Source: Entrophospora sp. SA101
Lineage: Eukaryota > Glomeromycota > Glomeromycetes > Entrophosporales > Entrophosporaceae
Assembly (NCBI GenBank): GCA_958430865.1
Contig: CAUDNR010001269.1
Span: forward strand, 17,512 to 81,511
Direction: 5' to 3'
Length of the DNA: 64,000 bases
Below the pieces are notes generated by a model. That model had not been told where the DNA came from and did no database searches. It saw nothing but the letters and a program-made list of their open reading frames with translations. Below, piece by piece: positions 8,339 to 57,228 of the stretch. Both the position numbers and the translations under genes were made by a program. The number at the start of each line of letters is the position of its first letter. Within the stretch, counting starts at the first letter, position 1.

Positions 8339-8344
8339 TTAATA

Positions 8345-12716: not shown

Positions 12717-12808
12717 GCTTAATTTCTACTTAAATTTGCAAGGAACGAGAATGTTTTAAGTGTTTCCCCATAATAGTCAAAATGTGCTTAAATTACACTT
12801 GAAATATG

Positions 12809-12896: not shown

Positions 12897-14479
12897 TGTG
12901 CAAACTTTGCATAAGGCATTTTTCTCTGAAGGAGCTAACAAGCATTAGGATATGTGGTGGATTTCGCTACCAACCATGTCCAGGAATGAAAGATAAGTTG
13001 CATGTTGATGAAGAATATGCAATTTACTTTAACAAAACATACAGTAACAATGCAATGAGATATCATGTGTTGAAAACTAGTAGTATTGATAATATTTCAT
13101 ATCCTTCCTATGATTTTATGATGTTGAATGTGACAAGCATACAGAAGGAGGGTTATGGAATTATTGACACAATGGTTGTAGATCATGGTAATGGTGGACT
13201 TTTAATAAATAATGCAATCAAACCCAATTTAAAAACCAATGGGAGTCTTAGCTGGTCAATTCAAGGCTTGTGGTTGTAACCACATGTCAGTTGTCATTCA
13301 ACCAATCTCACAATAATTTCATGGGAAAACAATACCTCCTCTTTGTTTACTGATTGGATAGGCTATGTGGTTATTAACAACACTGATATAAATTCACCAT
13401 ATATAAGTACAATCAATGATTGAGACCAATCAACCAATCTTCCAGCAAAAAGCAACTGGTATAGTCGTTTTATACAATCTCTTCTTATGCAAGAATTAAA
13501 TATGACAGCAAATGGAACTTTTTTTGAGTCACCTGTTCTTAAAGTTAATTTTGAGGAGCCAAAAACTGTTAATTCAGGAAAATCACTTAATAGTTATTTT
13601 GATTCTGATGTTAAATTTAACTCAACACTTAGCTTGTATGCTTTAATTGAGTGTGAATGATATGGTAAAGTAGACAATCTTACAAAAAATGTAGTTGGTG
13701 TTGACTGCTGGATATTACTTGGATTTCCCATACATACTACATGAGGAATTGAACAAACTTTGTACAGCTGTGCTAGTGTAGTTGAAGCAAGTGTAAAGAC
13801 CATCAAATTGCAATCCAGTACAACAGGAGCAATTAATATAACAGATGTGCAAACTATCCCAGCACAATGGTATATTTAAAAGGGAACCCTTAATATTGCT
13901 GAAATGAATCCTTGGTGGGGAGGAGTTGAATTTGGAGAAAAACTTCCTAATAATAGTTTTTTAGTAAGTGAAAATACTCTTTTGTTACCAGCAGGAACTT
14001 CCAACATATGGGATATCGATGCAAATGCTGCTTCTGCTCCTGTTATTGCAGTTGACATGATGCGTAAGCTTGAGGATAGTTTAAAAGGTTATCGAGGAGA
14101 TGGGATTGGAAATTTGGCGTTATTACAACAATGGAAAGAAGAGGGATTAACTGAAAAGGATATAAGTGGTATGTACAAACGCCAGTGGAATGATATTATG
14201 ATCAATATGGTGACTCCTACCAACCAGGCTAAAATCGTTGGTACCACTCAATTTACGGTGAACAAAACATGCTATGATGTACAGTTTGCTACACAGTACT
14301 TGATAGCCATGTTTGGTCTAATAATTATATTCTACATACTTTTAGCAAGCCTTAGAAATGTAGATGCTTTCAATTCATTGATTAAAATTAGACATGTCGT
14401 TCAACAAATGGATCTTGGTAAAGTAATAATAAATGTACTGGAATATGGAGAGGCAAACACAGTTGGCCCATCACAATAG
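12896..14479 (+). pseudogene. Decayed gene for a secreted/membrane glycoprotein, five in-frame stops
   Basis: One uninterrupted reading phase runs for 528 codons, broken only by stops at 13277 (TAA), 13421 (TGA), 13658 (TGA), 13742 (TGA) and 13877 (TAA). There is no frameshift. The frame carries many Asn-X-Ser/Thr sites, cysteines and a transmembrane segment near the C-terminus (YLIAMFGLIIIFYILLASL, about 14311-14352), suggesting an ectodomain anchored by one helix. The last open stretch, 13904-14479 (191 codons), includes NPWWGGVEFGEKLPNN. The 5' end runs into a perfect inverted repeat, so the start is missing. Duplication D begins inside it at 13284. Family not recognised; stop codons argue strongly against function. 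Confidence 0.75.
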
Positions 14480-14989
14480 GTAAAAAAATTAATATCATTG
14501 GGCAAAAAAGGGTTTGAAAAACCCGATCCTAGCAAAAACCCTTATCATGATTTATTTATTTGGAATTTTTTTATACATAATTTAATAATTCCTTCATGCT
14601 ATGAAATAAAAGTTGCACATATGTGCTTTATTGACCCCATGAAAAATAAAATACGGAATTAACGTGTGTTAAATACGTTCTTAAAAATGTAAATTAACGT
14701 ATTTACGGTTTTGAAAAAATTTCCCTATTCAAATTTAGTATTAGTGTGAAATTGAATTGGTACGGAATCAGCACAGAATTTGAAAAGTAAAAGGTGCATT
14801 TTAAATTGTAACACACTGAAAAGGTACGTTTTTGGTTCCGCGCATAAGGCATGGAATTTGTGACATAATAATAAATGAATACATTTATTTTATTCATTAT
14901 GATTATACAATATTTTATTTAAAATCTATATCATCATCATTATCAATAATTTCAACATTTTAGATTTATATATTTAATATGCAACGGTC
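14480..14989. other. Non-coding spacer with a lone satellite I-like unit
   Basis: No gene. About 14740-14865 resembles satellite I (gaaaaggtacgtttttggtt, ccgcgcataaggcatggaat). The preceding segment repeats taacgtgtgttaaatacgtt-type motifs. Confidence 0.5.
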
Positions 14990-15250
14990 GCATTTACTTC
15001 GTTGAGAATTATTTCGTCGACAATCATTTCGTCGACACCCATTTCGTCGAAAATTATTTCATCCTCGAGCCAGAGACCGAACGAGTTAGATGTGAGGAGT
15101 GTGAGAAATTATTTAAGAAATTAGGTGAGGAAAGCGGGTTGTGTGGGAAGTGTGAGGAAAAATTTGTTTAATGAAGTTTTTTTTTTGTGACGAAATAATT
15201 TTCGACGAAATGAACTTTCGATGAAACAAACTTTCGACGAAATGAATTCA
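14990..15250 (+). mobile_element. Inverted-repeat element carrying a tiny CxxC...CxxC reading frame, copy 1
   Basis: Arms of about 60 bp made of repeated atttcgtcga units (about 14997-15060, inverted at 15188-15247) enclose a different, G-rich centre. The centre has a 34-codon frame at 15067-15171 ending in TAA, with RCEECEKLFKKLGEESG and LCGKCEEKF, a four-cysteine zinc-knuckle pattern. No ATG lies in the frame. Its use of GAG, GTG and GGG contrasts with the AT-rich neighbourhood, suggesting a captured host or viral-type exon inside a foldback transposon. Function unknown. Confidence 0.6.
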
Positions 15251-15294
15251 GACCAAGCAATGTTATTATTATTATTAATTTATTAATTTTAAAA

Positions 15295-15892
15295 ATGTCG
15301 GATAGATTCGCCAGAAAAAATAACGAACAAGTAAAGTTAAAGAAACTTCAAGGCAAGTGTTATTAGAGTAATGTTAGTAGCCATTAGTTAAGATCTAGTT
15401 ATATACAAACTTTGTAGAGAACCTTCTGAAGCAACAAAATAAACAATAAACATCAATGAGCATTTAAATGGTGATTTAAAAGCAAATGGAATAAAATCAT
15501 CAACTCCTGGAAAGAAAAGAAAGTGTGTGAGCTTTTCGTCAGATGTTTCGAAGAAGACAGTGCACAAATTACCATAGACAGCAGAACTGTACCATAACAA
15601 GCAATTAGACCATGGCATAAATCATGGCCAACAAGAAACAACTACTACAACTACCACCACTATTGTCTGATCAAGAACATTAAATACGTCAATTGACAAT
15701 TATTTTATGGTTAATGGCCCATTACACTGAAATTCAACAGGAAATTCAACACTTACAACAACTGCAAGAACAACAAAAACAACAACAACAATTATAATTA
15801 CAATAATTACAACAATAATAACAGCAGCAGCAGCAAAATCATGATCAACAAGAACAGCAACAACAACAATACCACACCTCAAATATTTGATT
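15295..15892 (+). pseudogene. Decayed polyQ-rich gene with a possible PP1-docking motif, copy 1
   Basis: A start (MSDRFARKNNEQVKLKKLQ, ATG at 15295) is followed, after a possible intron, by coding-like sequence EHLNGDLKANGIKSSTPGKK, then RKCVSFSSDVSKKTVHKLP, then a Thr-rich stretch and a Gln-rich tail. KCVSF fits the [RK]x(V/I)x(F/W) docking pattern of protein phosphatase 1 partners, but such short matches arise by chance. The frame is broken by TAA, TAG and TGA. In the polyQ tail several TAA codons stand among CAA codons, as expected from C-to-T change. Non-functional as read. Confidence 0.5.
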
Positions 15893-16779
15893 GTATTAAT
15901 ATATGAATTATTGAGAAATAAATCTGAACTTTCTTACATCTGTAGTTAATGGATGAATATATATATAATAAAATAAATGGAATTTCCTTATATCTATAAT
16001 AAATAGAATTGGTGGGTGAATATGTATAATAATAAAGCTCCTGACGGGTCGGGTTCGGGTTGATTTTGGGTTAATAAAAAAATTTTGTGATTTACATAAA
16101 TTCAGATAATAAAATTAATTAAATATAAAAGGCGAAACAGTTGTAATGGTTTAAAAGCTGCAATTGGTGTTATGCGTGACGCAAAACACAATTCATGATG
16201 CAAGGGATGCAGGACGCAATTCGTGACTCAAGACGTAACTCAAGGAGATTCGTGATGCAATAGATACATAATTAAAGACACAAGGCTAGCGGATGATGGC
16301 CGGGAACTAACCATAGTTTAGGCCTAATCTTGCAGCGAAGTTGGCGAAACTTAAACTGCGGGTTGTTTTATTGAACAAAAAAAAAGAATTGATTTGTTTT
16401 ATTATTACAAGCCGAATTAGGTCAAAAAAAGAATTATTTTTATGATGATCATAATCTTTTTTAATAAATATAAATAAATAATAGGAATGCAAATATAAAA
16501 TATTAATAAAAAATACAAAACGTAAGAGACTATATAGATCACATGTCCGGCATACGATTGGACGGTACTTCGATAAATCCGTTTTATTTATCATAAAACT
16601 TTGGTCATGGTTTGACAATTTAACCACAGTTTAGGAGTTTACCCATGGTTTAGGTAATTTTTAAGTTACGTCACTGAGTATATTAATATAAGATGTATAA
16701 ATAAATTAGCCTATCAAATTAAAACTTATAGTTAGTGTCCAACTAAAACTTTTGGGCTTAGAGATTAACTACATGTGAA
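15893..16779. other. Non-coding spacer with short repeats
   Basis: No gene. At about 16150-16270 units like gacgcaattcgtgac and gatgcaa repeat imperfectly. At about 16308-16650 aaccatagtttagg and inverted or direct variants (ccatggtttaggt, ccacagtttagg) bracket a 320-bp segment, a possible degenerate MITE. The 106-codon minus frame at 16307-16627 overlies this and is not credible. Confidence 0.4.
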
Positions 16780-17640
16780 TATGCAGTGTGATTCAAAAAA
16801 ATGGTGGTTGTGACGTAAAATTATTCAAAGTTGTCAAAAAGATTCCCATTTTTTTTAATAATAGTAAATGTAGTTAGATGATTTACATGTTTGCTAACAC
16901 AAAATTAGAAGCATAACGTAAACCATTTTGCATTTTTGGATGAATGGTATCCATTCACAAAAGGAAGACAAACATATATTCCTTTGTGCCATTGAGAAAA
17001 ATTAAAGAATCCGTTCTATTGAACACAAAGGGTCTTCCTTATAAGGTTACACAAAACTTGCCACGTTTTATTGGACAAGTTATTCGCTGTTTCAACACAC
17101 CAATTTGCAGTTAAACGCATAATGTGTCAATTTCACAATTTACTGTTTAATGACATATGAGAAAAAGGTTACAAAAGTTCCGTACCCCGATACTAACTAC
17201 ACGTCACTTTGAAGCTCGGGTAAAGCTCATTTGAACGACAAGTGGAGTCGTAAGTCCTTACAGATAAAATAGCATTTGATCCTTTTCATTGGTGGCATAA
17301 ATGCCAGTTTGTAGATTACCAAAATCACGGCAAAAAGTAATGACATGGAGAGGAATTTCATTGATATCATGGTTGGGCCTTACATGTTAACATATTGCAG
17401 AACTAGCTTTTACCTGCTCCACAAAGGTCGCATGATAGAAACTGGCGTTTGCGATAATCCGAAGCAAACATCACGTTTTGCGAAGATTACATTGCTGAGA
17501 ATAGGATTGACTTGATTGACTGGCCATTCAATAGACCTGATCTCAATCCGATGGAGAACATGTGGTAAAGAAGAACGCTTAAAAATTTGATGAATTGAAG
17601 CAATTTATGGTTGAAGAATGCCTCAGTAGACAGTTAAAAT
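16780..17640 (+). mobile_element. Dead Tc1/mariner transposase remnant, copy 1
   Basis: Plus-strand frames show two signature pieces of the Tc1/mariner DDE transposase. VMTWRGISLISWLG begins at 17337 and is equivalent to the VxxWGGIS block around the second catalytic Asp. WPFNRPDLNPMENMW lies at 17521-17565, equivalent to the WPxxSPDLNPIENxW block. The blocks lie in different frames and are separated by stops, and a TAA follows the second block, so the gene is frameshifted and inactive. Terminal repeats could not be delimited. Confidence 0.75.
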
Positions 17641-19139
17641 ATTATTATGTCTGTGAAAAAGAGACGTGAATTAGTTTTAGAAAAAAACGATTATAGAATT
17701 TCTTATTAATTTAAATAATATACTTTTTACATATCACAATTTGTAACTTAAAAAGGCTTTAAACATCTAACGAATGATATATTAGCATAATACAAGAATT
17801 CAGCAATGAAACATTCTATGACAATTCTATGAATTATATCTTAATACTATGAAGTTGAGAAGCCATGCAAAACTTATGACGGCTGTGTTTGGTTATTTCT
17901 TTTAATATGATACATAGAACACAAGCTAAGATGGTTCAAAAAAAAAACAATTGAGCGGGCACACACAAATCCATTCTAGATAAAAAAAAGATAGACGGGT
18001 ACTAAGATCCAGGAGAAAGGAGAGACACACTGAAATTGATTAATAATCGGGACGATTGATTGATTGAATTGATTGATAATATTAATGCAGTACATATTCA
18101 ATATCAAACAACATAAAAGGAAATACGTGAAATACAGAAGAAGCTCACGAAATAGAGAGAAAAGCAAAAGAAGGATTCACCAAGCTTAATTTACAAACTT
18201 ATTTATTCATATATTGATTCACGTTATTTTAAATATGTTAAATTTGATCGTTAATTTTATCGTTTTTGATTGGTTGAGTTTTTTTAAATGATGCCGAAAT
18301 CATGTCCTTTTTAAGTTAAACGAAATATACATTATTGAAGAAGAATAAAAGTGGCTTTAATAAATTCATTTACAGCAAATGAAACCAAAATATTATCAAG
18401 CGTTTTATTATTGTATGAGATTTCTTTGGTCAAGTATAAATGTCCCAATACCCTGGTCTATAAGATACAAAGTAAAGTATTCAAATTATAATATTAAAAA
18501 CTTGCGCGATAACTCTTTAAGTTTCGATTTTCTATGTATATGCATGCGCAGACTTGAATAAATGGCATCATGGAATAAATATATTATAGCGTTAAAATGC
18601 TGTATCAAACAAAATTACCTGATTTACATGGCCACTTAACAGTTGTTTCTTCAAGAAATAATTTATCATCATCGAATTTAATATGTTCGTTTGTTCTTTT
18701 TCAAATAATGCCATAATATGTTTCTCAGATATTATAAGATATATACACATCTATGCATGCATTTTAAATGCACGTGTGCACACACAGACTATCAAAATTC
18801 AAAACTTCACTATCTGGTCCATCGTAAATAACACATGTAAAGCAGAAGTTTGAATATGATTTTGTGTTTTAGCTGCTGTGAAAAATATGTTCAACGACAA
18901 CATTAGAAAAGTTTTCCGAGTATACGCATGCATATTTTACATTTTGTGGATATGTATATTAATATTAATATATACTGTAATAGTAAGTACTATGGCGTGC
19001 AGATTTTTGGTTTTAAATTGTGTGCATATTTGTCTTAATGCATATAATATATATTATCAGAAAAGGAAAAAAAATCACCCATTATAATAATAAAGGGGTT
19101 TTTTCCTAGGGGTAAGTAAATATATTAATTTAGAATATA
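17641..19139. other. Intergenic DNA, no credible gene
   Basis: AT-rich with scattered short open frames (for example a 69-codon plus frame at 18878-19087 of hydrophobic residues) lacking domains or exon partners. A gattgattgaattgattg repeat lies near 18055. Confidence 0.4.
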
Positions 19140-19236
19140 TGGGGCATGCTCACCCAATCCAAGAGGTTTAACCTTAGGATCGACGTCTCAAATAGTAAGG
19201 TTAACCCTTGTTGTAGACCCTTGGATTGGCTGGGCA
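19140..19236. mobile_element. Long imperfect palindrome / foldback element
   Basis: ggggcatgctcacccaatccaag at the left pairs with the right-hand segment cttggattggctgggcatgc, and the inner ggtttaacctta pairs with taaggttaaccc. About 95 bp can form one long hairpin. Non-coding and probably a MITE. Confidence 0.6.
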
Positions 19237-21560
19237 TGCAACAAAGTGAACATTTGTACTACGAATGATTACAGGACCAATTAAATAATTGGGGGACATG
19301 TAATTGTTGTAAATTATTATTTAAAAATCAAAACAGTTGTCGAAGGCAGTTTAAGACCTATGAAATTCCCTGTTGAATGGAACACCTCACCACCAGACTT
19401 AAGGTTGCTTGCCAAAAATCCTCCAGAAATCAATCAGCAGGGTTTCGGCAGGTTACACATTAATTGTTTATTATACTTGTATGTTTTTCATATGACTCAA
19501 TTAATTGCATCAAAAAGTCACCCCATTGAGTCAAGTGTAAGCATGTTAGCTGAAGTTGACTCTCTTAATAAAGGTGTAATAGTTTTTCATAAATGCTGAA
19601 GTTAATTTTATTAGTTGCCAAAATTATATCTGAAATTATTTGGACTCTTTGATTAAATATTAAAAGGCTGGGTAGATTTTTTATGCCTATTGATACAAAG
19701 AATATTGTAAATACAAAATTGCTTACCAAAATTGATTTTTTCAAAAACCATTTTAACTAACATTCTTATCAACCTATTTCTACCATAGTTAACAAGTTTG
19801 GAAATTGTCCATACAATGAATAAGCAAAATCAGTCAATTCTCTTGGAAAATATATTAACTTAAAAAAAATAAATACAATGGAACAAATTACAATAGATAG
19901 ATTCATGTCTTGAAATTTTTTTTTTAATTTAAAAACTTTAATTAGTGTCACATGAGTCACCAATATGTGCAGCCAATAAATGCTTTAATTCCCTAAATGC
20001 CCAAGGGGGGTGCACTTAGGGAGGTTGACTGTAACAGTTTTAAATCGAATTTAATTAATGAAAAGAAGCACGAACTAAATTTATGGTATTTTACCAAAAT
20101 CATTTTCCTGTTGCTGCTTCATTATATACAACATAACAATCCATTGCAGATAAGAAGGATGGTCGAATTTATCTCACGCATAAAATTTTAAATTTTGCAA
20201 TGTTCTCAAAGAAGGATTTTCTTATACATTCCATTTTCTTGGCTGGCATTACCTAACTCGCCGGGATCAATTTTGGAGCTAGAATTTCAGCTGATGTTCT
20301 TTTGTTCTGATTACTGGCCGCGCGGGTCTATTTTTCATTTCCAAACTTTAGTCTGGTAGACAGCCTCTACTTTTTCTCGGGTGGTTTGTGAGCGCACTCA
20401 CCTAAATTTAAACCTATTGAATTTACTTCAACTGTCACTGCAAAAGTAGGAATCCCAATATTTTGCAATAAACTCCGCAAAAAATTGTTTATGAACCAGA
20501 GCTCGTTGAACAACACCCAAAAAAATAAGATAAATGAATTAATTGCCTTGGCATGAAAATTTTCGATAATTTATATACAACCCTAGAAGAAAATATAACA
20601 ATAAATACAATAGCCTTTTTTAGAAATATAATGTTTTCCCCCGCCAAGTAGTATTACAAAATTATTCATCATTGATCGTCCGACCACGAATTAATAATAA
20701 TAATAATTAATTAAATTAATCAAACCAATTTTTTATTAGTTATCGAAAAAATACTCATAATAAGCATAACTACGCCACAAGGTAAGAATAACCTGATTTG
20801 TTCAAAACCATTTTTTAGAACTAGAACATATTAATATTAATATTACTGTATAAAAATGGTAAATTTGGAACCACGTAAAAAAGCTAAGCTATTTATTTAT
20901 TTACTATATGTTATCATAATTACGAGGGTCCCAGAGGTTGTTTTTTGCTGGAGACCGAAAATGACGTAAATGTTAGCATAGTCAGTATGGTTATTACATC
21001 CTTCTTTCTTGTATGGCATTTTCCCTTTAAAGCACTACCATAATTTTTCTTCAAGTATTTAGAACCTTGAGTTGAACCCTTGAAAAATCTTTGGTGGGCT
21101 TTGCAATCAATGATTGGCTGCTGTGGCTTAATACCTCTTTATATGGATAGATAGGTGCAATTGAACACAAAAATAAAAAAAACTTGAGTTTATTAATAGA
21201 AAATCCTAAAAAAAAAAAAAAAAGTAAAAAAAATTTATTAATTTATTAAATTATGTACTACCACTTTTTAATGTAATAATAATAAATAAAACAATAAATA
21301 ATAAATAAATAATAATGCTACATATACATGAACGGACGAACCTTCTTCTCAAAAGAAAAACTCTTAGAAAATTTTTATTTATTTTAATTTTAATAAAAAC
21401 TATTCTATAAAATAAAATAAGATAAAAATATTCTTATTTTTTTCTTTATTTTTAATATTCTGATCATTACTGACCTCTTTTAACTTAAAAGAGATTAACA
21501 TTCATTCTTTTAATTAATATATAAATAAAAAATTGTTATAATACTTAATAATAGTAATAC
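19237..21560. other. Intergenic DNA upstream of ADAM, with a solo transposon end
   Basis: No convincing gene in 2.3 kb. Near 19998-20033, ggtgcacttagggaggttga followed by ctgtaac resembles a pogo-type terminal repeat (inverted: cagtcaacctccctaagtgc), but no opposite end was found. 20250-20560 has higher complexity and some GC, possibly a decayed exon, with no recognised protein. 21190-21540 is A/T homopolymer rich and presumably includes the ADAM promoter; no promoter element can be fixed. Confidence 0.45.
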
Positions 21561-24500
21561 ATGGGCTCATTACCCCTTTTTAATCAATGGTTTATATGGC
21601 TTTTTGCCTTGACAACATGGATAATATGTGTTAATGGTAAATTATTATTTTCATTCAATTTCAAAACCATAACTCAAACTTAAAAATATTAATTATTTAT
21701 ATCTTTTTCAGCTGATAGTTATTCATCAAACCCTTTGACATATTTGGAATTTGTTAGTGATCCTAGTATAGATATACTTCCTAGAAATAGATTTGAGTCA
21801 CACAATCAAGAATATTTAATACAAGATTTAGATGATAAATCATTACGACATGATGACTCAATGCGTATACGATTTATAGCGTTTAATAGGACATTTAATC
21901 TTCATCTTGAACCTCATTACGATTTATTACATCCCGAAGCCACCATCACCATACACCATGCAGACGATACCAGCACCACAACACGATTACTACTTGACGA
22001 TCATAGGTTGTATAAAGGATATTTATTAGATGTTAAATTTACCGATAAACGATTAACTGAGGATATGATTGGTTTAAAGAGAAAATCCTTATCAGAAGAA
22101 CTTTTTGGTTCTGTTGGTGTCCTTGGTTGGGCAAGTATTCATGTTCACGATGATGGAAGGTAATTATTATTATTAACTTTGAAAAAAAAAATTTTTTCAA
22201 TGTAATATTTAACAATAGCAAATTAATTGTAATTTTTTTTTTTTAAGTCGATCAAACAGGAAACCAATATTTGAAGGCGCATTTTCCTATAATAATGATA
22301 TATATCATATTAAAACTATTGAGAATTTCAAAATAACCCGGTTTAGAGATGATCCAGCAATACCCAATCTTTCTGCACGTCATATTAATCATCGTTATGC
22401 TACAATGGTTATATTTCGTGATTCTGATATAAAAAATTCTGATCATAATCGAAGATCTTTAACCGATGAAAATGTACAAACTTGCGGCAGCGATGATATT
22501 CTTGGTATCAAAACTAACAGAAATGACCATCTTTTAACTCATACTGATGAAAATTCTAATCCACTTTCTCCATGGTGGAAAAGATTGGACTTTAGTTCAA
22601 ACATAAAAGGAAACTTGGATGTTTCCTATCATAGTAATAGTAATAATTTATTTAAAAGAGGTGCGTCAGGTTGTCCAGATGCTAGAAAAGTTGCTTATAT
22701 GGTTTGTTTTTATTCTTTAACTTCATTTATTTTATACACTTATCCCCCCAAAAAAAGAACTCTTCTAATCAAGTCATTTATCCTATCAATGAATATTCAT
22801 TCAAAAAAAAATGTGTTTAGGGTGCAGCCGCTGATTGTACATATGGTATGTTATAATATTATTGTCGGTTTTTAATTCTAATTATATTATAAATTACTTT
22901 ATAAATTCAAAATAAACCTTATTTCTCTAAAAAAAACCCCTCCCTTTTTTTTCCTAGTCACTTCCTATAAATCGAGTGATGCAGCTCGAAAACAAATACT
23001 CACTGATTGGGGTACTGCATCTGCTGTTTATGAAAGAACTTTTAATGTGACGCTTGGTCTTATAAAAATTGATATACGTGATGCAGCATGTCCTGCTACC
23101 CCCGATAGTGCCGTACTTTGGAATAGAGATTGTAGTGATAGTTATTCTATAAATACTCGTTTAAGTGATTTTAGTTTATGGAGGGGAAAACTTACTAGTA
23201 AGTATATTTCCCTCGTTTATTTAACTATTTTTTTCGATATATAAAAATTTATTTTTTGGATAAATACGATCAAATTTTAATTGTTAAATATTTTATAGAT
23301 GATACTGACACAGCTTTATGGCATCTTATGTCAAAGTGCAAGTAAGTTAAAGAAAAAAAATATTATTTAGTAGTTATATCATCATCAACAACATTGATCT
23401 CATGTTATTTTAAAAAAAAATTTTTTTAACTTGTGATGCTTGCTTTTAACTAATACATATTTATAGTACTGGATCAAAAGTTGGTGTTGCATGGTTAGGT
23501 CAGCTTTGTACGATTACAGCAAATTCTCAAACCACTGGTAAATAAATAAAAACTTTTTTATATTATATTTCCATGTATTTATTATATGTATTATATATTT
23601 AATCACTCGTAATCATAATTAAAATTAATTTAGAACAAGGTACAGCGTATGTATCAGGAACTGGTGTATCAACCATAGTTAAAGATGAATGGAAAGTTGT
23701 TGCTCATGAAATTGGACATGGATTTGGTAATTAACATTAAAAGTTAATAATATTTACTAATTATAATTGTAATAGTATTTAACATTATAATAATAATGAT
23801 GATGATGATGATGATGAATTTTAGGTGCATCTCATGATTGCATAGCAGCAAATTGTCCTTGTACCAGTGCTGCTCAATGTAATTGTTGTCCATTATCCTC
23901 AACTGTTTGTGATGCCGGCGGCAAATATATAATGAACCCAACTAGCAATGTGCTTACAAATGATTTTAGGTAAAAAAAGTTTTATTTATTTATTAAGGTT
24001 ACTTAAATATATGCATATTAATTAATATATATTATTTTATTTAGTCCTTGTTCAATTCAAGATGTATGTAGTATGCTATTAAGTATTGGTACTTGTCTTA
24101 AAGGTTTGTATTTATATTATATTATATTATATTATATATATATATATATATGCATTCTTAAAAAGATATGAAATTTATAAATTTATAAAATTTATAAATA
24201 TACATTTAATTTTTAGATCCAAGTGATACAAATTCAAAAATTTTAAGTCAAGCTATGTGCGGAAATGGTTTAAAAGAAGATGGCGAAGAGTGTGATTGTG
24301 AGTAATAGTTAGTTACTAATTATATACATATATATATATATTCAATATTCTTTACTCAAAATAAAATTTTATATAAACAGGTGGCACTGATTGTCAAAAT
24401 GATCAATGTTGTGATGGCACTACTTGTAAATTCAAACCTGGTGCTGTATGCGCGTAAGTTGACTATTTATTTTGATTGCTAGAATAATTTAATGAATAAA

Positions 24501-27753: not shown

Positions 27754-27792
<39 letters not shown>

Positions 27793-35935: not shown

Positions 35936-35959
35936 TATTTGGTAATATTCCATGTGATA

Positions 35960-40421: not shown

Positions 40422-40465
40422 GACCAAGCAATGTTATTATTATTATTAATTTATTAATTTTAAAA

Positions 40466-42811: not shown

Positions 42812-45800
42812 ATTATTATGTCTGTGAAAAAGAGACGTGAATTAGTTTTAGAAAAAAACGATTATAGAATTTCTTATTAATTTAAATAATATACTTTTTA
42901 CATATCACAATTTGTAACTTAAAAAGGCTTTAAACATCTAACGAATGATATATTAGCATAATACAAGAATTCAGCAATGAAACATTCTATGACAATTCTA
43001 TGAATTATATCTTAATACTATGAAGTTGAGAAGCCATGCAAAACTTATGACGGCTGTGTTTGGTTATTTCTTTTAATATGATACATAGAACACAAGCTAA
43101 GATGGTTCAAAAAAAAAACAATTGAGCGGGCACACACAAATCCATTCTAGATAAAAAAAAGATAGACGGGTACTAAGATCCAGGAGAAAGGAGAGACACA
43201 CTGAAATTGATTAATAATCGGGACGATTGATTGATTGAATTGATTGATAATATTAATGCAGTACATATTCAATATCAAACAACATAAAAGGAAATACGTG
43301 AAATACAGAAGAAGCTCACGAAATAGAGAGAAAAGCAAAAGAAGGATTCACCAAGCTTAATTTACAAACTTATTTATTCATATATTGATTCACGTTATTT
43401 TAAATATGTTAAATTTGATCGTTAATTTTATCGTTTTTGATTGGTTGAGTTTTTTTAAATGATGCCGAAATCATGTCCTTTTTAAGTTAAACGAAATATA
43501 CATTATTGAAGAAGAATAAAAGTGGCTTTAATAAATTCATTTACAGCAAATGAAACCAAAATATTATCAAGCGTTTTATTATTGTATGAGATTTCTTTGG
43601 TCAAGTATAAATGTCCCAATACCCTGGTCTATAAGATACAAAGTAAAGTATTCAAATTATAATATTAAAAACTTGCGCGATAACTCTTTAAGTTTCGATT
43701 TTCTATGTATATGCATGCGCAGACTTGAATAAATGGCATCATGGAATAAATATATTATAGCGTTAAAATGCTGTATCAAACAAAATTACCTGATTTACAT
43801 GGCCACTTAACAGTTGTTTCTTCAAGAAATAATTTATCATCATCGAATTTAATATGTTCGTTTGTTCTTTTTCAAATAATGCCATAATATGTTTCTCAGA
43901 TATTATAAGATATATACACATCTATGCATGCATTTTAAATGCACGTGTGCACACACAGACTATCAAAATTCAAAACTTCACTATCTGGTCCATCGTAAAT
44001 AACACATGTAAAGCAGAAGTTTGAATATGATTTTGTGTTTTAGCTGCTGTGAAAAATATGTTCAACGACAACATTAGAAAAGTTTTCCGAGTATACGCAT
44101 GCATATTTTACATTTTGTGGATATGTATATTAATATTAATATATACTGTAATAGTAAGTACTATGGCGTGCAGATTTTTGGTTTTAAATTGTGTGCATAT
44201 TTGTCTTAATGCATATAATATATATTATCAGAAAAGGAAAAAAAATCACCCATTATAATAATAAAGGGGTTTTTTCCTAGGGGTAAGTAAATATATTAAT
44301 TTAGAATATATGGGGCATGCTCACCCAATCCAAGAGGTTTAACCTTAGGATCGACGTCTCAAATAGTAAGGTTAACCCTTGTTGTAGACCCTTGGATTGG
44401 CTGGGCATGCAACAAAGTGAACATTTGTACTACGAATGATTACAGGACCAATTAAATAATTGGGGGACATGTAATTGTTGTAAATTATTATTTAAAAATC
44501 AAAACAGTTGTCGAAGGCAGTTTAAGACCTATGAAATTCCCTGTTGAATGGAACACCTCACCACCAGACTTAAGGTTGCTTGCCAAAAATCCTCCAGAAA
44601 TCAATCAGCAGGGTTTCGGCAGGTTACACATTAATTGTTTATTATACTTGTATGTTTTTCATATGACTCAATTAATTGCATCAAAAAGTCACCCCATTGA
44701 GTCAAGTGTAAGCATGTTAGCTGAAGTTGACTCTCTTAATAAAGGTGTAATAGTTTTTCATAAATGCTGAAGTTAATTTTATTAGTTGCCAAAATTATAT
44801 CTGAAATTATTTGGACTCTTTGATTAAATATTAAAAGGCTGGGTAGATTTTTTATGCCTATTGATACAAAGAATATTGTAAATACAAAATTGCTTACCAA
44901 AATTGATTTTTTCAAAAACCATTTTAACTAACATTCTTATCAACCTATTTCTACCATAGTTAACAAGTTTGGAAATTGTCCATACAATGAATAAGCAAAA
45001 TCAGTCAATTCTCTTGGAAAATATATTAACTTAAAAAAAATAAATACAATGGAACAAATTACAATAGATAGATTCATGTCTTGAAATTTTTTTTTTAATT
45101 TAAAAACTTTAATTAGTGTCACATGAGTCACCAATATGTGCAGCCAATAAATGCTTTAATTCCCTAAATGCCCAAGGGGGGTGCACTTAGGGAGGTTGAC
45201 TGTAACAGTTTTAAATCGAATTTAATTAATGAAAAGAAGCACGAACTAAATTTATGGTATTTTACCAAAATCATTTTCCTGTTGCTGCTTCATTATATAC
45301 AACATAACAATCCATTGCAGATAAGAAGGATGGTCGAATTTATCTCACGCATAAAATTTTAAATTTTGCAATGTTCTCAAAGAAGGATTTTCTTATACAT
45401 TCCATTTTCTTGGCTGGCATTACCTAACTCGCCGGGATCAATTTTGGAGCTAGAATTTCAGCTGATGTTCTTTTGTTCTGATTACTGGCCGCGCGGGTCT
45501 ATTTTTCATTTCCAAACTTTAGTCTGGTAGACAGCCTCTACTTTTTCTCGGGTGGTTTGTGAGCGCACTCACCTAAATTTAAACCTATTGAATTTACTTC
45601 AACTGTCACTGCAAAAGTAGGAATCCCAATATTTTGCAATAAACTCCGCAAAAAATTGTTTATGAACCAGAGCTCGTTGAACAACACCCAAAAAAATAAG
45701 ATAAATGAATTAATTGCCTTGGCATGAAAATTTTCGATAATTTATATACAACCCTAGAAGAAAATATAACAATAAATACAATAGCCTTTTTTAGAAATAT

Positions 45801-46731
45801 AATGTTTTCCCCCGCCAAGTAGTATTACAAAATTATTCATCATTGATCGTCCGACCACGAATTAATAATAATAATAATTAATTAAATTAATCAAACCAAT
45901 TTTTTATTAGTTATCGAAAAAATACTCATAATAAGCATAACTACGCCACAAGGTAAGAATAACCTGATTTGTTCAAAACCATTTTTTAGAACTAGAACAT
46001 ATTAATATTAATATTACTGTATAAAAATGGTAAATTTGGAACCACGTAAAAAAGCTAAGCTATTTATTTATTTACTATATGTTATCATAATTACGAGGGT
46101 CCCAGAGGTTGTTTTTTGCTGGAGACCGAAAATGACGTAAATGTTAGCATAGTCAGTATGGTTATTACATCCTTCTTTCTTGTATGGCATTTTCCCTTTA
46201 AAGCACTACCATAATTTTTCTTCAAGTATTTAGAACCTTGAGTTGAACCCTTGAAAAATCTTTGGTGGGCTTTGCAATCAATGATTGGCTGCTGTGGCTT
46301 AATACCTCTTTATATGGATAGATAGGTGCAATTGAACACAAAAATAAAAAAAACTTGAGTTTATTAATAGAAAATCCTAAAAAAAAAAAAAAAAGTAAAA
46401 AAAATTTATTAATTTATTAAATTATGTACTACCACTTTTTAATGTAATAATAATAAATAAAACAATAAATAATAAATAAATAATAATGCTACATATACAT
46501 GAACGGACGAACCTTCTTCTCAAAAGAAAAACTCTTAGAAAATTTTTATTTATTTTAATTTTAATAAAAACTATTCTATAAAATAAAATAAGATAAAAAT
46601 ATTCTTATTTTTTTCTTTATTTTTAATATTCTGATCATTACTGACCTCTTTTAACTTAAAAGAGATTAACATTCATTCTTTTAATTAATATATAAATAAA
46701 AAATTGTTATAATACTTAATAATAGTAATAC
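42812..46731. other. Intergenic DNA, copy of 17641-21560
   Basis: Includes the foldback element at 44311-44407 and the solo pogo-like end at about 45169-45204. No gene. Confidence 0.45.
44311..44407. mobile_element. Long imperfect palindrome, copy 2
   Basis: Copy of 19140-19236. Confidence 0.6.
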
Positions 46732-49700
46732 ATGGGCTCATTACCCCTTTTTAATCAATGGTTTATATGGCTTTTTGCCTTGACAACATGGATAATATGT
46801 GTTAATGGTAAATTATTATTTTCATTCAATTTCAAAACCATAACTCAAACTTAAAAATATTAATTATTTATATCTTTTTCAGCTGATAGTTATTCATCAA
46901 ACCCTTTGACATATTTGGAATTTGTTAGTGATCCTAGTATAGATATACTTCCTAGAAATAGATTTGAGTCACACAATCAAGAATATTTAATACAAGATTT
47001 AGATGATAAATCATTACGACATGATGACTCAATGCGTATACGATTTATAGCGTTTAATAGGACATTTAATCTTCATCTTGAACCTCATTACGATTTATTA
47101 CATCCCGAAGCCACCATCACCATACACCATGCAGACGATACCAGCACCACAACACGATTACTACTTGACGATCATAGGTTGTATAAAGGATATTTATTAG
47201 ATGTTAAATTTACCGATAAACGATTAACTGAGGATATGATTGGTTTAAAGAGAAAATCCTTATCAGAAGAACTTTTTGGTTCTGTTGGTGTCCTTGGTTG
47301 GGCAAGTATTCATGTTCACGATGATGGAAGGTAATTATTATTATTAACTTTGAAAAAAAAAATTTTTTCAATGTAATATTTAACAATAGCAAATTAATTG
47401 TAATTTTTTTTTTTTAAGTCGATCAAACAGGAAACCAATATTTGAAGGCGCATTTTCCTATAATAATGATATATATCATATTAAAACTATTGAGAATTTC
47501 AAAATAACCCGGTTTAGAGATGATCCAGCAATACCCAATCTTTCTGCACGTCATATTAATCATCGTTATGCTACAATGGTTATATTTCGTGATTCTGATA
47601 TAAAAAATTCTGATCATAATCGAAGATCTTTAACCGATGAAAATGTACAAACTTGCGGCAGCGATGATATTCTTGGTATCAAAACTAACAGAAATGACCA
47701 TCTTTTAACTCATACTGATGAAAATTCTAATCCACTTTCTCCATGGTGGAAAAGATTGGACTTTAGTTCAAACATAAAAGGAAACTTGGATGTTTCCTAT
47801 CATAGTAATAGTAATAATTTATTTAAAAGAGGTGCGTCAGGTTGTCCAGATGCTAGAAAAGTTGCTTATATGGTTTGTTTTTATTCTTTAACTTCATTTA
47901 TTTTATACACTTATCCCCCCAAAAAAAGAACTCTTCTAATCAAGTCATTTATCCTATCAATGAATATTCATTCAAAAAAAAATGTGTTTAGGGTGCAGCC
48001 GCTGATTGTACATATGGTATGTTATAATATTATTGTCGGTTTTTAATTCTAATTATATTATAAATTACTTTATAAATTCAAAATAAACCTTATTTCTCTA
48101 AAAAAAACCCCTCCCTTTTTTTTCCTAGTCACTTCCTATAAATCGAGTGATGCAGCTCGAAAACAAATACTCACTGATTGGGGTACTGCATCTGCTGTTT
48201 ATGAAAGAACTTTTAATGTGACGCTTGGTCTTATAAAAATTGATATACGTGATGCAGCATGTCCTGCTACCCCCGATAGTGCCGTACTTTGGAATAGAGA
48301 TTGTAGTGATAGTTATTCTATAAATACTCGTTTAAGTGATTTTAGTTTATGGAGGGGAAAACTTACTAGTAAGTATATTTCCCTCGTTTATTTAACTATT
48401 TTTTTCGATATATAAAAATTTATTTTTTGGATAAATACGATCAAATTTTAATTGTTAAATATTTTATAGATGATACTGACACAGCTTTATGGCATCTTAT
48501 GTCAAAGTGCAAGTAAGTTAAAGAAAAAAAATATTATTTAGTAGTTATATCATCATCAACAACATTGATCTCATGTTATTTTAAAAAAAAATTTTTTTAA
48601 CTTGTGATGCTTGCTTTTAACTAATACATATTTATAGTACTGGATCAAAAGTTGGTGTTGCATGGTTAGGTCAGCTTTGTACGATTACAGCAAATTCTCA
48701 AACCACTGGTAAATAAATAAAAACTTTTTTATATTATATTTCCATGTATTTATTATATGTATTATATATTTAATCACTCGTAATCATAATTAAAATTAAT
48801 TTAGAACAAGGTACAGCGTATGTATCAGGAACTGGTGTATCAACCATAGTTAAAGATGAATGGAAAGTTGTTGCTCATGAAATTGGACATGGATTTGGTA
48901 ATTAACATTAAAAGTTAATAATATTTACTAATTATAATTGTAATAGTATTTAACATTATAATAATAATGATGATGATGATGATGATGAATTTTAGGTGCA
49001 TCTCATGATTGCATAGCAGCAAATTGTCCTTGTACCAGTGCTGCTCAATGTAATTGTTGTCCATTATCCTCAACTGTTTGTGATGCCGGCGGCAAATATA
49101 TAATGAACCCAACTAGCAATGTGCTTACAAATGATTTTAGGTAAAAAAAGTTTTATTTATTTATTAAGGTTACTTAAATATATGCATATTAATTAATATA
49201 TATTATTTTATTTAGTCCTTGTTCAATTCAAGATGTATGTAGTATGCTATTAAGTATTGGTACTTGTCTTAAAGGTTTGTATTTATATTATATTATATTA
49301 TATTATATATATATATATATATGCATTCTTAAAAAGATATGAAATTTATAAATTTATAAAATTTATAAATATACATTTAATTTTTAGATCCAAGTGATAC
49401 AAATTCAAAAATTTTAAGTCAAGCTATGTGCGGAAATGGTTTAAAAGAAGATGGCGAAGAGTGTGATTGTGAGTAATAGTTAGTTACTAATTATATACAT
49501 ATATATATATATTCAATATTCTTTACTCAAAATAAAATTTTATATAAACAGGTGGCACTGATTGTCAAAATGATCAATGTTGTGATGGCACTACTTGTAA
49601 ATTCAAACCTGGTGCTGTATGCGCGTAAGTTGACTATTTATTTTGATTGCTAGAATAATTTAATGAATAAAGTATTCATATAACTAACAATTTGTATGCA

Positions 49701-51342
49701 AATTCACATGTATATACTTGTAGTGATTCAAACGATCTGTGTTGTCTAAATTGTAAATATAAAACTGCCGGTATAGTTTGTCGACCACCAACTTCTAATT
49801 GTGACATAAGCGAAGTATGTACTGGCACGTCTGGGGATTGCCCTGTGGATAAACACATTGATGATGGAACTACTTGTGGCACAAATCTTGAATGTGCCGG
49901 TGGTATATGCACTTCAAGAGATGCGCAATGTAATGTACGCGGTTCTAAAATGGGTATCACCAAAGCATGCTCATCTGTTGAATCCACGAGTTGTGTAATA
50001 AGTTGCTTAAATCCTAATGATACTCGTTCATGTCTTGAAATGAGTGGATATTTTGTGGATGGGACACCGTGTGGTCTTGCTGGCAGATGCAATAAAGGAC
50101 AATGTGCTAATGGATCACTATGTAAATTATTAATTAATCAATCAATCAATTTATTTATTCAAGTAATTTGCAAATAATAATGATGATATCTTCTTTTAAT
50201 GTTAAAAAAAGTTCAAGCTATAGGATCTTGGATAGCAAAAAACCTAAAAATAGTTATTCCTGTTGGAATAATTATCGGGCTTATGATATTAGTTTGGTAT
50301 GATATTGATTATTGTCGTTATTATTGTCATTATTACTATTTTTCTTTCCTCTCTTTTAAAAAATGAAACTAAAAAAACTTTTCCCCCAATAAATAGTATA
50401 TGTAATTGCGTTTATCGTTCTCGTAAAAAGCGACGCTTGGCAAAAAATAAACTGTCAATATCATCGACTGATAGCTCCAGATATCTTTATTCTCCTGTAA
50501 ATCCATCCCACACAACTGCCAATCTATCCAGAAGCAACCGCATCGCAACCGGTGATAATACTCCTACTCCAAGTGGATGGGTTGACCCTACACCTTACAA
50601 TGGACCCAAATCACCCCCTGAAACACATCGAAACGTACCCGCCTCATCACAGCCACGCGAAAGGATAGTGCCAATGCCAGATCCTTATCATTATAATCGA
50701 TCTACGGATCGGTTATTTCCTGGCTCATCATCTTCTTCTTCATCCTCATTATCATCATCATCACCATCACCTCCACGTCCACCACCTTCAGCACAAACAA
50801 CATCACATCAGGTGTACGATAATAATAACAACAACAACAACAACAACAACAATAATAATACAAGGTCTGTTTCACCACGTCAAATGTATGATAATACAAG
50901 GTCTGCTTCACCACGTCAAATGTATGATAATACAAGGTCTGCTTCACCACGTCAAATGTATGATAATACAAGGACAAATCAACCATCAAATCAAATGTAT
51001 ATCAATACAATGACAAATCAACCAATACAGAGACAAGATAATCAATCACCGCTGAGCGGTAATAATAGAAGGCAAAATTCACCACATCAAATGCAAATTA
51101 ATACAAGAACAAATCAACCACCTTCATCACACCAACTTAATCCAAGGACCAATCAACCAATACCACGACAAGATAATCAATCGCCAATATTATCACCATC
51201 AGGCAGTAATAGAGGGCACAATTCACCACCAATACAACGACAAGATAATCACTCGCCAATATTCTCAGTATCAGGTAATAATAATAGAGGGTATAATCAA
51301 CCTGATCGTAATGAACCTTATAACAACGATCAATCAAGATAA
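46732..51342 (+). CDS. ADAM-family metalloprotease-disintegrin, copy 2 (15 exons, 1078 aa)
   Basis: Same gene as at 21561-26171, shifted by 25,171. Exons run from 46732-46807 to 50397-51342 with the same intron lengths. The zinc motif HEIGHGFGASHD spans the intron after 48897. Both copies keep every exon, all disintegrin cysteines, the membrane helix and the repeated tail, including equal lengths of the Asn-codon and Ser-codon runs. Both are therefore potentially functional, or the second is an assembly repeat of the first. The upstream sequence is identical for over 8 kb, so regulation should be the same unless distant block E or C matters. Confidence 0.9.
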
Positions 51343-51579
51343 GATGAAGTTAAAAATTATAAAATTGTCATATATACATTCACACACATATATACATAAC
51401 GGGGGGTGTAAATTGTGTACAGTAATTTTTTAAAAAAGATATATTTATTTTTTGTTTAATTGTTAGAACTATTTATGTAATAATATAATTTTATAATTTA
51501 AAAAAAGAAAGGTTTATTTAATTGTGATTTTAGAAATAACAATTAATATTAATAAAAAAACTAATAAAAATGGTTATTT
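51343..51579. other. ADAM 3' flank, copy 2
   Basis: Copy of 26172-26408; no gene. Confidence 0.4.
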
Positions 51580-52924
51580 TTATTTCCTTGAATTATATTT
51601 TCGTGTGTGTGTACCTTCTTTTTTGGCTGAATCTTCAACTTTTTTTATGCCTTCATCATTGACATCACTTTTATCGTTGCTTGAAAAGTTGACAAGGATT
51701 GACTGGAATAACTTTTAATGATTTACCGTCTCAACTATGCTCATAAGAATTGCAGGTAAGATTTCCTTCAGGAAAATAAGGATCAAGCTATTTTACCTCT
51801 TTTATTAATGTCGACATCGCATATGACTCAAGAAATTCAACCGAGTAGGTAGATGGTGTAGGGGTCATTTCGAGGATCTTTGTAGGTACGAACAACTTGA
51901 GAGTACTTAGAGGGTTATCGATCTCCAGTAATTTGTTTGTTGGGTAGGTCCAACACAAATCCATTTTTCTAACATATATTTCAAAATGGTTTTCTGTCGA
52001 CATTTGTCACTGTGCTTTCATATATGATTTGACATTCAACCTTCCCTAATATTCTACCCGAGGTGGTTCATAAATTTCACTGAAATGAAATACTGCTTGC
52101 TCTTTTATACGACATGAATGGGTGTAAATATAAACTTTGTATTTTGTCAACCTAATGGAGAATTTCACCAACAAGTTCATTTATTTTCTCAATGTGTATA
52201 TATATATTGGTTTCAAATAGTAATCGCTTACTGAACTGGCCCGGATCTTTGATTGTAACAACTAGCGCAGCATCTTACATGAAACTGCAAATGGATTTTA
52301 GTTGATTTGACATTATTGCCACAAAACAAACAGCGAATCTAGGAAAATCAAATATATTCCAACCTGGTGGTGGAGGTCGTTTTTTGGCCCGTTGAAATAA
52401 TAAGCCAATCTTGACCTCTTCCAAATTTGTAGAGTTATCTTATCAGTCAGGATAAAGTGAAATCTAGAGCATGTTTGTGCCAATGCCAATAAACCAGATG
52501 TTGGAGAATCTTCAATGTGGCGTGTATATTTATAAAAGGCGCCGTTTGTTTTTTTGTAATTGGTTGGATGTGATTCAACCTGAAGATGATTATTATTGTT
52601 GTTATTATTATTACTGTCATTGTCCGCACAAGTTTTCTTACGCTGTGAAACTTTTTCTTTATGTGATTCTTGACAAGTAAATAGGAAGACGGATTTTATA
52701 AATAATCTTGACTGTTGCAATGTTTTTCTCTCTTTCGGTTCTAACAAATAATACTTGGCGATTTGATGAGGGAAATGAAAATTCCAATAATCAAATCATT
52801 ATACCCACCAAATATAGGTTTGTACTGAAACATTATTTTTTATTCTTAAAAAAGAAAAGTCTGCCTCGAAATCAATTTTTCAACTAGCATTTTTCTCCCG
52901 AATTTTTTGTTGTCGTTTTTCATC

Positions 52925-52963
<39 letters not shown>

Positions 52964-53021
52964 CCATCAATAATGCCTATATCAGTTCCTAATCCTACAT
53001 TGTCATCCACCATATTCTTTG
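51580..53021 (-). pseudogene. Decayed F-box-like gene, copy 2
   Basis: Copy of 26409-27850 with the same frame breaks. The longest open piece is 52313-52747 on the minus strand. Confidence 0.5.
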
Positions 53022-53566
53022 AGCAATTTCAAAAAAATATTCGTTTGCTCCAATTTATGGTGCATATTAATAATATAAAGTAGTTATTATATGGTAGATA
53101 GTCTGGTCCCCTATTAATAAAAAGTGATTTGATGAGGTTGTTAATACTAACATCAAAGATACGATGGGCTTTTGAGGGTTAAGGTTTGGTGAATTCGTTA
53201 ATTTCGGCAAATTTGAAACACATCTTGAATTATTAATATTATTAAATGATGATGACGATAATGATGATGATGATGCTGATAAAAATGATTATCACTAAAT
53301 TTATGTTATACAATTTTGTTAAGGAAAGAAGGAAAGGCGTTTTTTCTAATCTGGTGCTTGTGTTGCTTTCTTATGAAGGAAAATTAGAATAGGCTTGTTA
53401 TTTATTATTTCTTGACGGAAAGTATCAACTTCAGCAATTAAATCCTGTTTAAATGTTATACTAAGTTTCGTGAAACATAAAATAAAGTGAGTTTTTAAAA
53501 CAATTGTTTCAATTCTTTCAAAAATAAATTAATTATTTTGAATTCTGAATTTTAAAAAATTTAATA

Positions 53567-54387
53567 ATGTATAAATACATTGAAGTTCACATTGGTGAGA
53601 AAATTAAAGTAGTAAACATCATTTGATTAGTATTTTTAATTCGCTAATTATTAAAAAAATTTTGTTAAAAAATAGTTGAAGCAAAAGACGTTAAAGACAC
53701 TGATACTATTGGTATGTGAAGTGAATATATTAATAAACAATGTATATTTGAATTATAATATTTTTTTTAATTAAAAATAATTTAATTGATATCTTTTTAT
53801 ATAAATAACTAATAGGCAAAGGTTTGTATGATAAAAATTTTTAAAAAAACTCTTCCACAGAAAACCATTATGTTAATTATTTTAATTTATTTAGGTGATC
53901 CATACATTCAATTTTGGTTTGATAGTTCTGCTACAAAATATAGAACTGATGCGAGGGCTGGAACAGCCACTCCTGTTTGGGATAAAAAATTCAAAATGTT
54001 AGTGTGTATATATATATATATATAATTCATGATAATAATTTGTTATTTCTAATATATTATTGTTATTTACATCCTCTTTTCCTCAAAAATTTAGCAAATA
54101 TGAAAATCAAAAGGTTCTACATCTTCAACTTCTAGACGATGATGTCGGCAAAGATGACATTGTAAATATTGGCAATTTTTATATAATTGTTAATTTAAAA
54201 TAAAAAATTTTGCTTAATCACACAATATTTAATAACATATTATTAGATTGGTGATGCGACATTAGAGCTTAGTGAGTTTGAACGTGCTGATGATAAAAGA
54301 TACGTTGATAAATGGTGTAGTGTACAGTCTAAGGATGATGCAAAATCTAATGGCGAGGTCCGTGTTATTTTAGAACTTATTGATTAG
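53567..54387 (+). CDS. Small single C2-domain protein, copy 3
   Basis: Same gene as at 378-1198, shifted by 53,189. Exons 53567-53594, 53676-53711, 53816-53821, 53895-53997, 54095-54161, 54247-54387. The 126-aa frame and the 6-nt micro-exon are kept. This copy, like copy 1, is followed by block B rather than block E. Confidence 0.85.
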
Positions 54388-55202
54388 TTGAATGAGTGAA
54401 GTAATTATCTTTACATATTAAGTATTCCTCTTCTCTTCATATAAATATACATTTATGTAAATTATTAAATTATTATGCTTGTATCTTTCTTGCAAATTGG
54501 AATTTCTCATGTACAAAATATCAAATAAAAATTTTTTTTTTTAAAAATTTTATTAAGTTAAAGGTTCAATAAATTTGATAGTGTCTAAACAATCAAAAAA
54601 GTTGCTACCTCCAATTCTGGTTCTTCCTCGACTGTTGAAATTAATATTGTTTATGATTAATTTTAGAATTTTATCCAACCAACACAACTAAATCAAATTG
54701 TCATGAATTATTGAAATCACCGCTACCGTCGAAATTTATAGCCTTAGAACTTACTTGTCGTGAAGCATCTTCAACTTCAAAGAATCTGCTTCTTCTTTTA
54801 TGATTTTTTATATTTGGTTTGGCATGTTTTGAATTAATTCTTGTCTAATGATTTCCATCACCCCTTACATTAAGATATTTATTACTAGAGCGTAAAGCAC
54901 TTTTCCAAAATTCCAAAAGTTGTTATTTATATCCAAACTTTTTTCAGTGTAAAAAAATTAATCATTATTAAAAAGTTTTTTTCGTTTTTGATTTATTTGT
55001 GAAAGGAACTTCAAATATATTAATAATATTTTTTCCGATTGTAATTATTATAAGTATTCTATATTCTTATTATCAGAAACATCAATATGGACTTTAGAAT
55101 CTTCTAAAACATTATGATTTAAAACATCTGCCTTGTTCAATTGTTTCATCATCAAAGTTCACACAGTCCACGCAACTATTAATCAATTCGAAATTAGAGT
55201 TA
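54388..55202. other. Intergenic DNA, copy of 1199-2013
   Basis: No gene. Confidence 0.6.
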
Positions 55203-55408
55203 CAGTCTACTCTCTCTATAACGACCCTCTCTATAACGACCACCAAGTAAAATTTCTCTATAACGAACTTCCCTTTTGTCCCCGTTTCAATTTTTTATAA
55301 TTAATTTCTCTCCCTATAACGACCATCTTAATAAACTCTCTCTATAACGACCAAAAGCAGAGAAATTAGATATAGGGACAGAAGGTTCGTTATAGAGAGA
55401 GTGAACTG
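55203..55408. mobile_element. MITE with pogo/Tigger-like ends, copy 3
   Basis: Copy of 2014-2219, TA-flanked. Confidence 0.8.
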
Positions 55409-57228
55409 TATATTTAATTTGATCGGACAAACGTCATGTGAAATAAATTTATTTAATATTTGTCATCAATAATTGATATTTTATAACCTTCTGAATACTT
55501 TTTTATGCATATCGTTATCTTCTTCCATGTTTTTATGGCAATAAAACTACTGGTTTTATTTATATAGATAGATGTTGATATCAATATTAATTAATGCAGA
55601 AAGAAAGGGGGCGTAATGTAACATAACTGTATTGTATATTTTATATATATTAATTATATTAATATGTATAAGACTCCGAACGAATTGAGTCAAATTTTAA
55701 AGTGACTCAAACCAGAGTTTTAAATTGATGTTATACTTTAAAAGTAAAATGTACCCATAACTAGAATAAGATCATTTCAATGTACAGAATAGGTACTAGT
55801 GCTGAATAGATGTGGAATGAATACATACTAATATGGAAAAATATACTTTCCAATACTAATATCCTAAAAATATGGAAGTATTTTTGGTCTGGGCAATAAA
55901 AAAGAACATCGTGATTTGAAAAAAGATTTAAAGAACAACATCTCGAAATCTTACTATGCAAAATGGGTATGGTCTTTTTATATTGTCCAGACCCTTCTGT
56001 AGGTGAAAGTCCATTTTTTTCTATATTAATATGTATATTCCGCATTGGTATGTATTCATTTAACATTTAACATTAAGTTAAGATTGGATGGATATAAAAA
56101 ATAAGGAAGTATCTTGCATAAAAACATCAACCGTTCTTATATATATGTATATTTTAACTTTAGTGGTTATTATATTGGTTGCAACATTAAAGATCGTTAA
56201 ACTTTATACATTTAATAATATTATTTCAATTCAATCATTAACACCAAAGGAACAAAATTAATTATTTCGCAATAAAAGCTATTTATTTGTTTATTTTATT
56301 AATTTATGCATGCTAATTATTAATTATTCAAGTTATTTGTTTTATTTTCTTTTATTCAAATTATTTGCTTTATTCAAATTACTATTCATTTTATCATTTT
56401 GTTCATTTTGTTCGTTTTATTCACTTTGTTTGTTTCATTTGTTTTATTCCATTCATTTTTATTCGATTTATTCATTACTCAAATTGAATCACTCAAATTA
56501 TTCAAATTATTTTTCATTCAAACTATTTGTTTTATTCAAGTAAACCTTATTCGAATAGAAACCCTAAAGATTATGATATTATTTTAGTACAAAGAGCTTT
56601 AGAAATATTTAACCAATAACTTAATTACAATTCTATAATTAGTCATATGTCTTTAATAAAACAAACACGACTTAGCTATTTAATCATTTCCTTGTATGTG
56701 AATGCCTCCATCCATCAAATATCCATGATGGTCATGAATATGTTTGCTGTTATAATTGACACAACAAGCAATTGCATCACCCAGGTAGTAATGATACCAA
56801 GGCCATGCATGAATGAAATTTTTAATAATGTGTGTCTACCCAGATCTCCGGGGTTCACAATAATAGATAATAAATCTGATGTTGATTACAGGCGCTAGAT
56901 TTAATACAATTTTCCTGTCACAAACACGAAATAAGGCATTTTCATGCCTCCTCATAACTGTGGATTTTCTTCCACAGGTGAGGTAACTCAAACATGTTGG
57001 AGGCTTTAGACAAAACTTCCCCTTATCTCCCCCTCAGACCAGGCTGGCTGTTGTCATATGGGCATTGATCACTGATGAGGATTGGCATTTCTGTGAAGAT
57101 TTCTTTGTGTTATATACCTCTAGAATAAAGTCAGTGTCTGCAACTGATTGATGCTTTGGATTTTCCTATGTTCAGAGTTTTGATCCTGGGTTGTTGTCTT
57201 GTTGGTGGCATGCCTACTCACCCCCATT
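55409..57228. other. Non-coding, copy of 2220-4039
   Basis: Contains the T-rich attcaaatt low-complexity tract at 56310-56590. No gene. Confidence 0.5.

Follow-up and report, generated by a model that had tools for sequence, protein, structure and literature searches.

Artificial duplications have been described in assemblies made after whole-genome amplification (Pacasus paper, PMC6218980, in the part of its text available to us). One of the closest described cases is SA101 (Entrophospora/Claroideoglomus), whose nuclei were amplified by MDA and for which 24 single-nucleus assemblies were merged by Lingon, with Nanopore scaffolding (PMC6987183). In the available text of that paper, workflow 2 yields 130.41 Mb (2n) in 4,632 contigs compared to 70.81 Mb from pooled reads, a consensus built from normalised single-nucleus assemblies is presented as prone to duplication, and the merging of single-nucleus assemblies made with normalised reads is reported to give duplicated single-copy genes and an inflated size (PMC6987183).

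The window analyzed here, a stretch of DNA of 64,000 nucleotides, corresponds to positions 17512-81511 of a contig of 81,511 bp (C1052) and contains a 17.9-kb repeat. Judging by the protein of the DRG2-type gene found next to the repeat, the DNA comes from the same fungus as the SA101 single-nucleus assemblies of PMC6987183, or from a very close one. The present assembly (101,348,593 bases, or 101.35 Mb, in 2,123 contigs) differs from that of workflow 2 and fits no row of the table in the available text of PMC6987183, so that we can only infer its tie to the workflow described there; the size gap to workflow 2 could be due to loss of short contigs, or the present assembly could be a different one made for a close strain. 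Exact repeats inside one contig, which we find here, are not described for the SA101 assemblies in the same available text. The Pacasus cases are alike in that repeats there are often inverted and vanish once chimeric reads are split, and unlike in that those repeats are palindromes whereas the repeat in the window is direct (PMC6218980, available part). With a recent tandem segmental duplication the repeat has in common its direct order, its sharp ends and the genes carried along, and it differs in showing zero divergence, in the distribution of the flanks of one locus over three copies, and in its setting among identical repeats found genome-wide. On the sequence evidence presented below, we consider it very probable that the repeat is a false duplication, in which a single locus was assembled repeatedly and its versions were linked head to tail.

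The repeated core and its genes

Direct comparison of positions 13284-31157 with positions 38455-56328, both on the forward strand, gave agreement at all 17,874 of 17,874 bases with 0 mismatches. The agreement ends sharply at both edges, beyond which identity at the offset of 25,171 is at background level in the next 500-bp windows. Chance is excluded as the source of an identity of 17,874 bp. A sequence-only reading of this DNA had proposed a 17.9-kb duplication at that offset without divergence, which is exactly what the comparison shows; it had also taken the region to be doubled, and there the repeat is present while the count was incomplete, the core occurring three times. We refer to the two copies above as copies 2 and 3. 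Copy 1 lies at positions 2771-20650 of C1052 and begins before the window, whose positions 1-3139 (forward strand) are the tail of the copy 1 core and equal 28019-31157 and 53190-56328. A plasmid origin was also considered; the 17.9-kb block has no megablast match in the plasmid collection, which is little informative because the organism is a fungus.

Across a stretch that takes in introns and simple repeats, all three copies are mutually identical (17,110 of 17,110 bp); for copies 2 and 3, agreement even in fast-mutating simple repeats had been remarked on earlier. The only core differences between copy 1 and copy 2 are 17 changes, namely 16 substitutions and a single 6-base length change, and they all sit in a 233-bp block at C1052:3308-3540; none is seen in the 2,789 bp before this block or in the 17,110 bp after it. 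Copies 2 and 3 have a common version of the block. The version in copy 1 is a mosaic in which 6 of the 17 changes are as in a relative on another contig (C1712, 96% identity) and 11 are not. Relatives elsewhere differ by 4-8%.

Each core carries an ADAM-type metalloprotease gene with scattered exons, modeled by eye at 21693-26171 (forward strand) and recurring at 46864-51342 and in copy 1. In order, the gene consists of a propeptide (33.1 bits, cut-off 23.7), a reprolysin catalytic part (39.1 bits, cut-off 27) with HEIGHGFG...ASHD, a disintegrin domain (42.1 bits, cut-off 35.1), a stretch resembling a membrane segment and, last, a tail of low complexity; the exon with HEIGHGFG also matches Reprolysin_4 (25.9 bits, cut-off 22). 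The ADAM protease that had been read from the sequence is therefore confirmed by its propeptide, reprolysin and disintegrin domains. The C2 gene placed in the repeat by the same reading is suggested at most by C2-like fragments at 28645-29213 (forward strand), the first of which scores 21.1 bits, just under the cut-off of 22, and the second of which has no family.

When 3,314 bp of the ADAM gene were compared with the assembly, with 18 of 18 candidates scored, three matches were at 100% and all of them in C1052, whereas the other 15 of the 18 were only 33-82 bp long. No full copy of the ADAM gene was thus found in the assembly outside C1052 among the 18 scored candidates, which counts against a false duplication because a real tandem array predicts the same confinement to one contig. 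A 256-residue piece of the protein has named relatives in Phycomyces, Coemansia, Modicella and Endogone and no named relative in Glomeromycotina; the length limits of this search excluded full-length relatives, so absence of ADAM from Glomeromycotina does not follow. Among eight papers listed for fungal ADAM proteins, none dealt with the topic.

Flanks, spacer and joins

The DNA on either side of the core is distributed unequally among the copies. The left flank of copy 2, at 11032-13283 (forward strand), is identical over 2,252 bp to the left flank of copy 1 at C1052:519-2770, a length that is bounded by N at the start of C1052 and may extend further left. The right flank of copy 1, at 3140-5259 (forward strand), is over its first 1,427 bp exactly equal to the right flank of copy 3, at 56329-58426 (forward strand), after which the two diverge inside a repeat-rich array. 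Copy 1 consequently has both flanks, copy 2 the left one only and copy 3 the right one only, and the order across copies 2 and 3 is left flank, core, spacer, core, right flank. As both the flank to the left of copy 2 and the flank to the right of copy 3 recur at copy 1, the repeated block is larger than 17.9 kb, and the shared flanks make the three copies look like one locus in pieces rather than like neighbors with separate histories.

A displaced piece of the left flank, 582 bp long with 2 mismatches to 12135-12716, is found at 9302-9883 (forward strand), where it starts directly after a 10-N assembly gap in the sequence (9292-9301). The DNA to the right of copy 1 (5500-7028 and 8338-9291) consists of repeats that are seen at 80-94% in many other contigs. 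To the right of copy 3, a gene at 59585-60997 encodes a protein that has no Pfam family and many Gigaspora relatives. Pieces of this gene occur at 91-99% in several other contigs, and its last part recurs in four contigs at 98-100%, with the similarity reaching ~61423, at the start of a repeat family.

Sequence comparison delimits a spacer of 7,297 bp between copies 2 and 3 (31158-38454). It contains the DRG2-type GTPase gene at 32200-34312 on the reverse strand, whose exons were spliced by hand with the last exon left out. Of 348 aligned residues, the resulting protein shares 346 with a protein of Entrophospora sp. SA101, the alignment having one 12-residue gap, and of the two mismatches one is at a hand-chosen splice point and the other is real in the present sequence; the next named relatives in the same listing are from Rhizophagus (88%) and from Diversispora and Gigaspora (86-87%). 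Two properties of the spacer count against a false duplication. The DRG2 part is matched only here among the best 40 of 349 candidates, and since it is unrepeated the assembly does not repeat everything; moreover, the sequence runs from copy 2 to copy 3 without an N gap.

The right end of the spacer is a satellite array of ~85-bp units (37402-38454, forward strand), and the start of copy 3 interrupts this array in the middle of a unit. The C1712 relative spans the join of left flank and core at 95.9% over 1,883 bp without gaps. Because the relative crosses it, this join is the older one, and the join of spacer and core in copy 3, where the satellite array meets the core at 38454/38455, is derived. 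The left end of the spacer has a 91% relative in C329 that begins within ~10 bp of the 31157/31158 join and has a different left neighbor. As far as their sequence tells, both core-spacer joins look like wrong joins in low-complexity or satellite DNA, and the short stretches of matching sequence there are as compatible with erroneous joining during assembly or amplification as with real breakage. Elsewhere, at C1712:35228-40238, the core start in forward orientation is fused to the left flank in reverse orientation with an overlap of ~6 bp, an inverted join of the type known from amplification chimeras.

Repetition across the assembly

Searches with window DNA, evaluated for the best-scored candidates, revealed at least 15 contigs with equal-scoring twin matches inside the contig (C1095, C86, C274, C1323, C2078, C1797, C1377, C2034, C1545, C1102, C1164, C1490, C1124, C1412 and C864), in 5 of the 15 in opposite orientation. 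Six of the 15, chosen for visible twins and not at random, were compared. The twins are identical over 4,000 bp in C1545, C1164, C1095 and C864, the inverted twin in C1490 has 1 mismatch in 3,985 bp, and C86 repeats 13.4 kb at 99.65% and, inverted, 2.3 kb at 100%. C1712, which was chosen because it matches the core and not from the twin-match set, repeats 9.1 kb at 99.4% as well as 2.8 and 2.5 kb at 100%. The within-contig repeats are hence not all exact, 99.4% being the lowest identity among those compared, and near-exact ones are common, so that the 17.9-kb repeat is not unusual against its own assembly. When only 10-N gaps are used as gap evidence and long N runs are set aside, C1052, C1712 and C86, the three contigs examined at length, have one gap each, and a repeated piece begins 0, 78 and 18 bp after it, respectively.

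Housekeeping genes are multiplied as well. The expected number of proteasome genes is 14. Grouping of 78 rows by hand, according to score and position, resulted in ~17 genes of the proteasome family present as ~36 copies; 12 of the 17 groups have at least two copies, 5 are single, and 4 are repeated inside one contig (C2, C1683, C714 and C1256). A proteasome gene region occurs four times in C1256, without a difference over 2,000 bp per copy and at uneven spacing (26,320; 26,782; 22,502), and C714 contains a tandem copy that is exact over 1,321 bp or more. The MCM family forms 4 groups with 6 copies, where 2 of the 4 groups are doubled on different contigs and none of the 4 is repeated inside one contig. 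The large subunit of RNA polymerase occurs as one single gene (C275) and as two pairs, one with similar but unequal scores (C1777/C1871) and one with equal scores (C454/C793). The groups that remain single (5 of 17 for the proteasome and 2 of 4 for MCM) count against a false duplication.

Frames similar to a bacterial RNA polymerase large subunit were also noted in C2074, C1799 and C555, open only with TGA readthrough (3, 2 and 1 TGA, respectively). In mollicute-type bacteria TGA is read as tryptophan, and the sequence of these contigs suggests mollicute-type endobacterial DNA in the assembly. Such endobacterial-looking contigs are unexpected for sorted nuclei and again count against the false duplication account.

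Origin of the repeat and gene counts

The sequence-only reading had left three options unranked, namely recent duplication, homogenisation and placement of the same sequence twice by the assembler. The evidence favors the last, because near-exact within-contig repeats, both direct and inverted, recur through the assembly and housekeeping genes expected only once occur two to four times. The source would be an Entrophospora-like arbuscular mycorrhizal fungus whose assembly holds the same genomic DNA many times over. One real locus, with left flank, core and right flank arranged as in copy 1, would have been assembled repeatedly, the probable sources being nuclei amplified separately or wrong paths through the assembly graph, and the resulting pieces would have been joined head to tail in one contig rather than merged. 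An amplification and merging step would then lie behind the copies, and the true copy number would be one. This is the simplest account, and it would cover the agreement of the copies in introns and simple repeats, their common possession of the flanks of one locus, and the repetition of many other genes. The copies are nearly identical, the exception being the 17 changes in the mosaic block of copy 1 (233 bp); their flanks belong to one locus; and repeats of the same type run through the assembly, single-copy genes included, with some genes remaining single. False duplication alone leaves two facts unaccounted for, which are the presence of all copies of the block in one contig and the unrepeated spacer.

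These two facts speak for a real and very recent tandem triplication, in which three ADAM-bearing blocks are arranged with the DRG2-bearing spacer and its satellite DNA between two of them. The sequence continuous without N between copies 2 and 3 fits a triplication too, and joining at short stretches of matching sequence can occur in a real duplication as well. We nevertheless regard this as unlikely. It would have to reconcile the three copies without a single change across 17.1 kb, simple repeats included, with an assembly in which near-exact repeats, many of them inverted, and multiplied proteasome genes are common, and with the observation that copies 2 and 3 jointly carry one left and one right flank of the locus seen in copy 1.

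Another possibility is a true circle of core and spacer (25,171 bp), either natural or made during amplification, that was copied by a rolling circle into tandem units. The order core, spacer, core is what would result if such a circle were traversed one and a half times, and the four copies in C1256 are roughly 22-27 kb apart; however, their spacing is not constant, and the many inverted pairs are not a rolling-circle product, which makes this explanation very improbable. Least credible of all, to the point of being nearly negligible, is that old copies are kept identical by gene conversion, which could produce the mosaic block of copy 1 that partly resembles the C1712 relative. Conversion would need to have erased every difference across 17.1 kb, coding and non-coding alike, and to have stopped precisely at 13284 and 31157, with relatives elsewhere still differing by 4-8%, and it leaves unexplained the identical housekeeping genes repeated through the assembly.

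If the copies were real, they would mean that a protease gene has very recently been amplified in tandem in a mycorrhizal plant symbiont. Under the preferred interpretation as a false duplication, the main value of the 17.9-kb repeat is a warning on gene counts. Used without correction, the assembly leads to wrong counts, inflated threefold for the ADAM protease and two- to fourfold for proteasome genes, and studies of gene-family expansion in mycorrhizal fungi that rely on this assembly should collapse identical repeats first.
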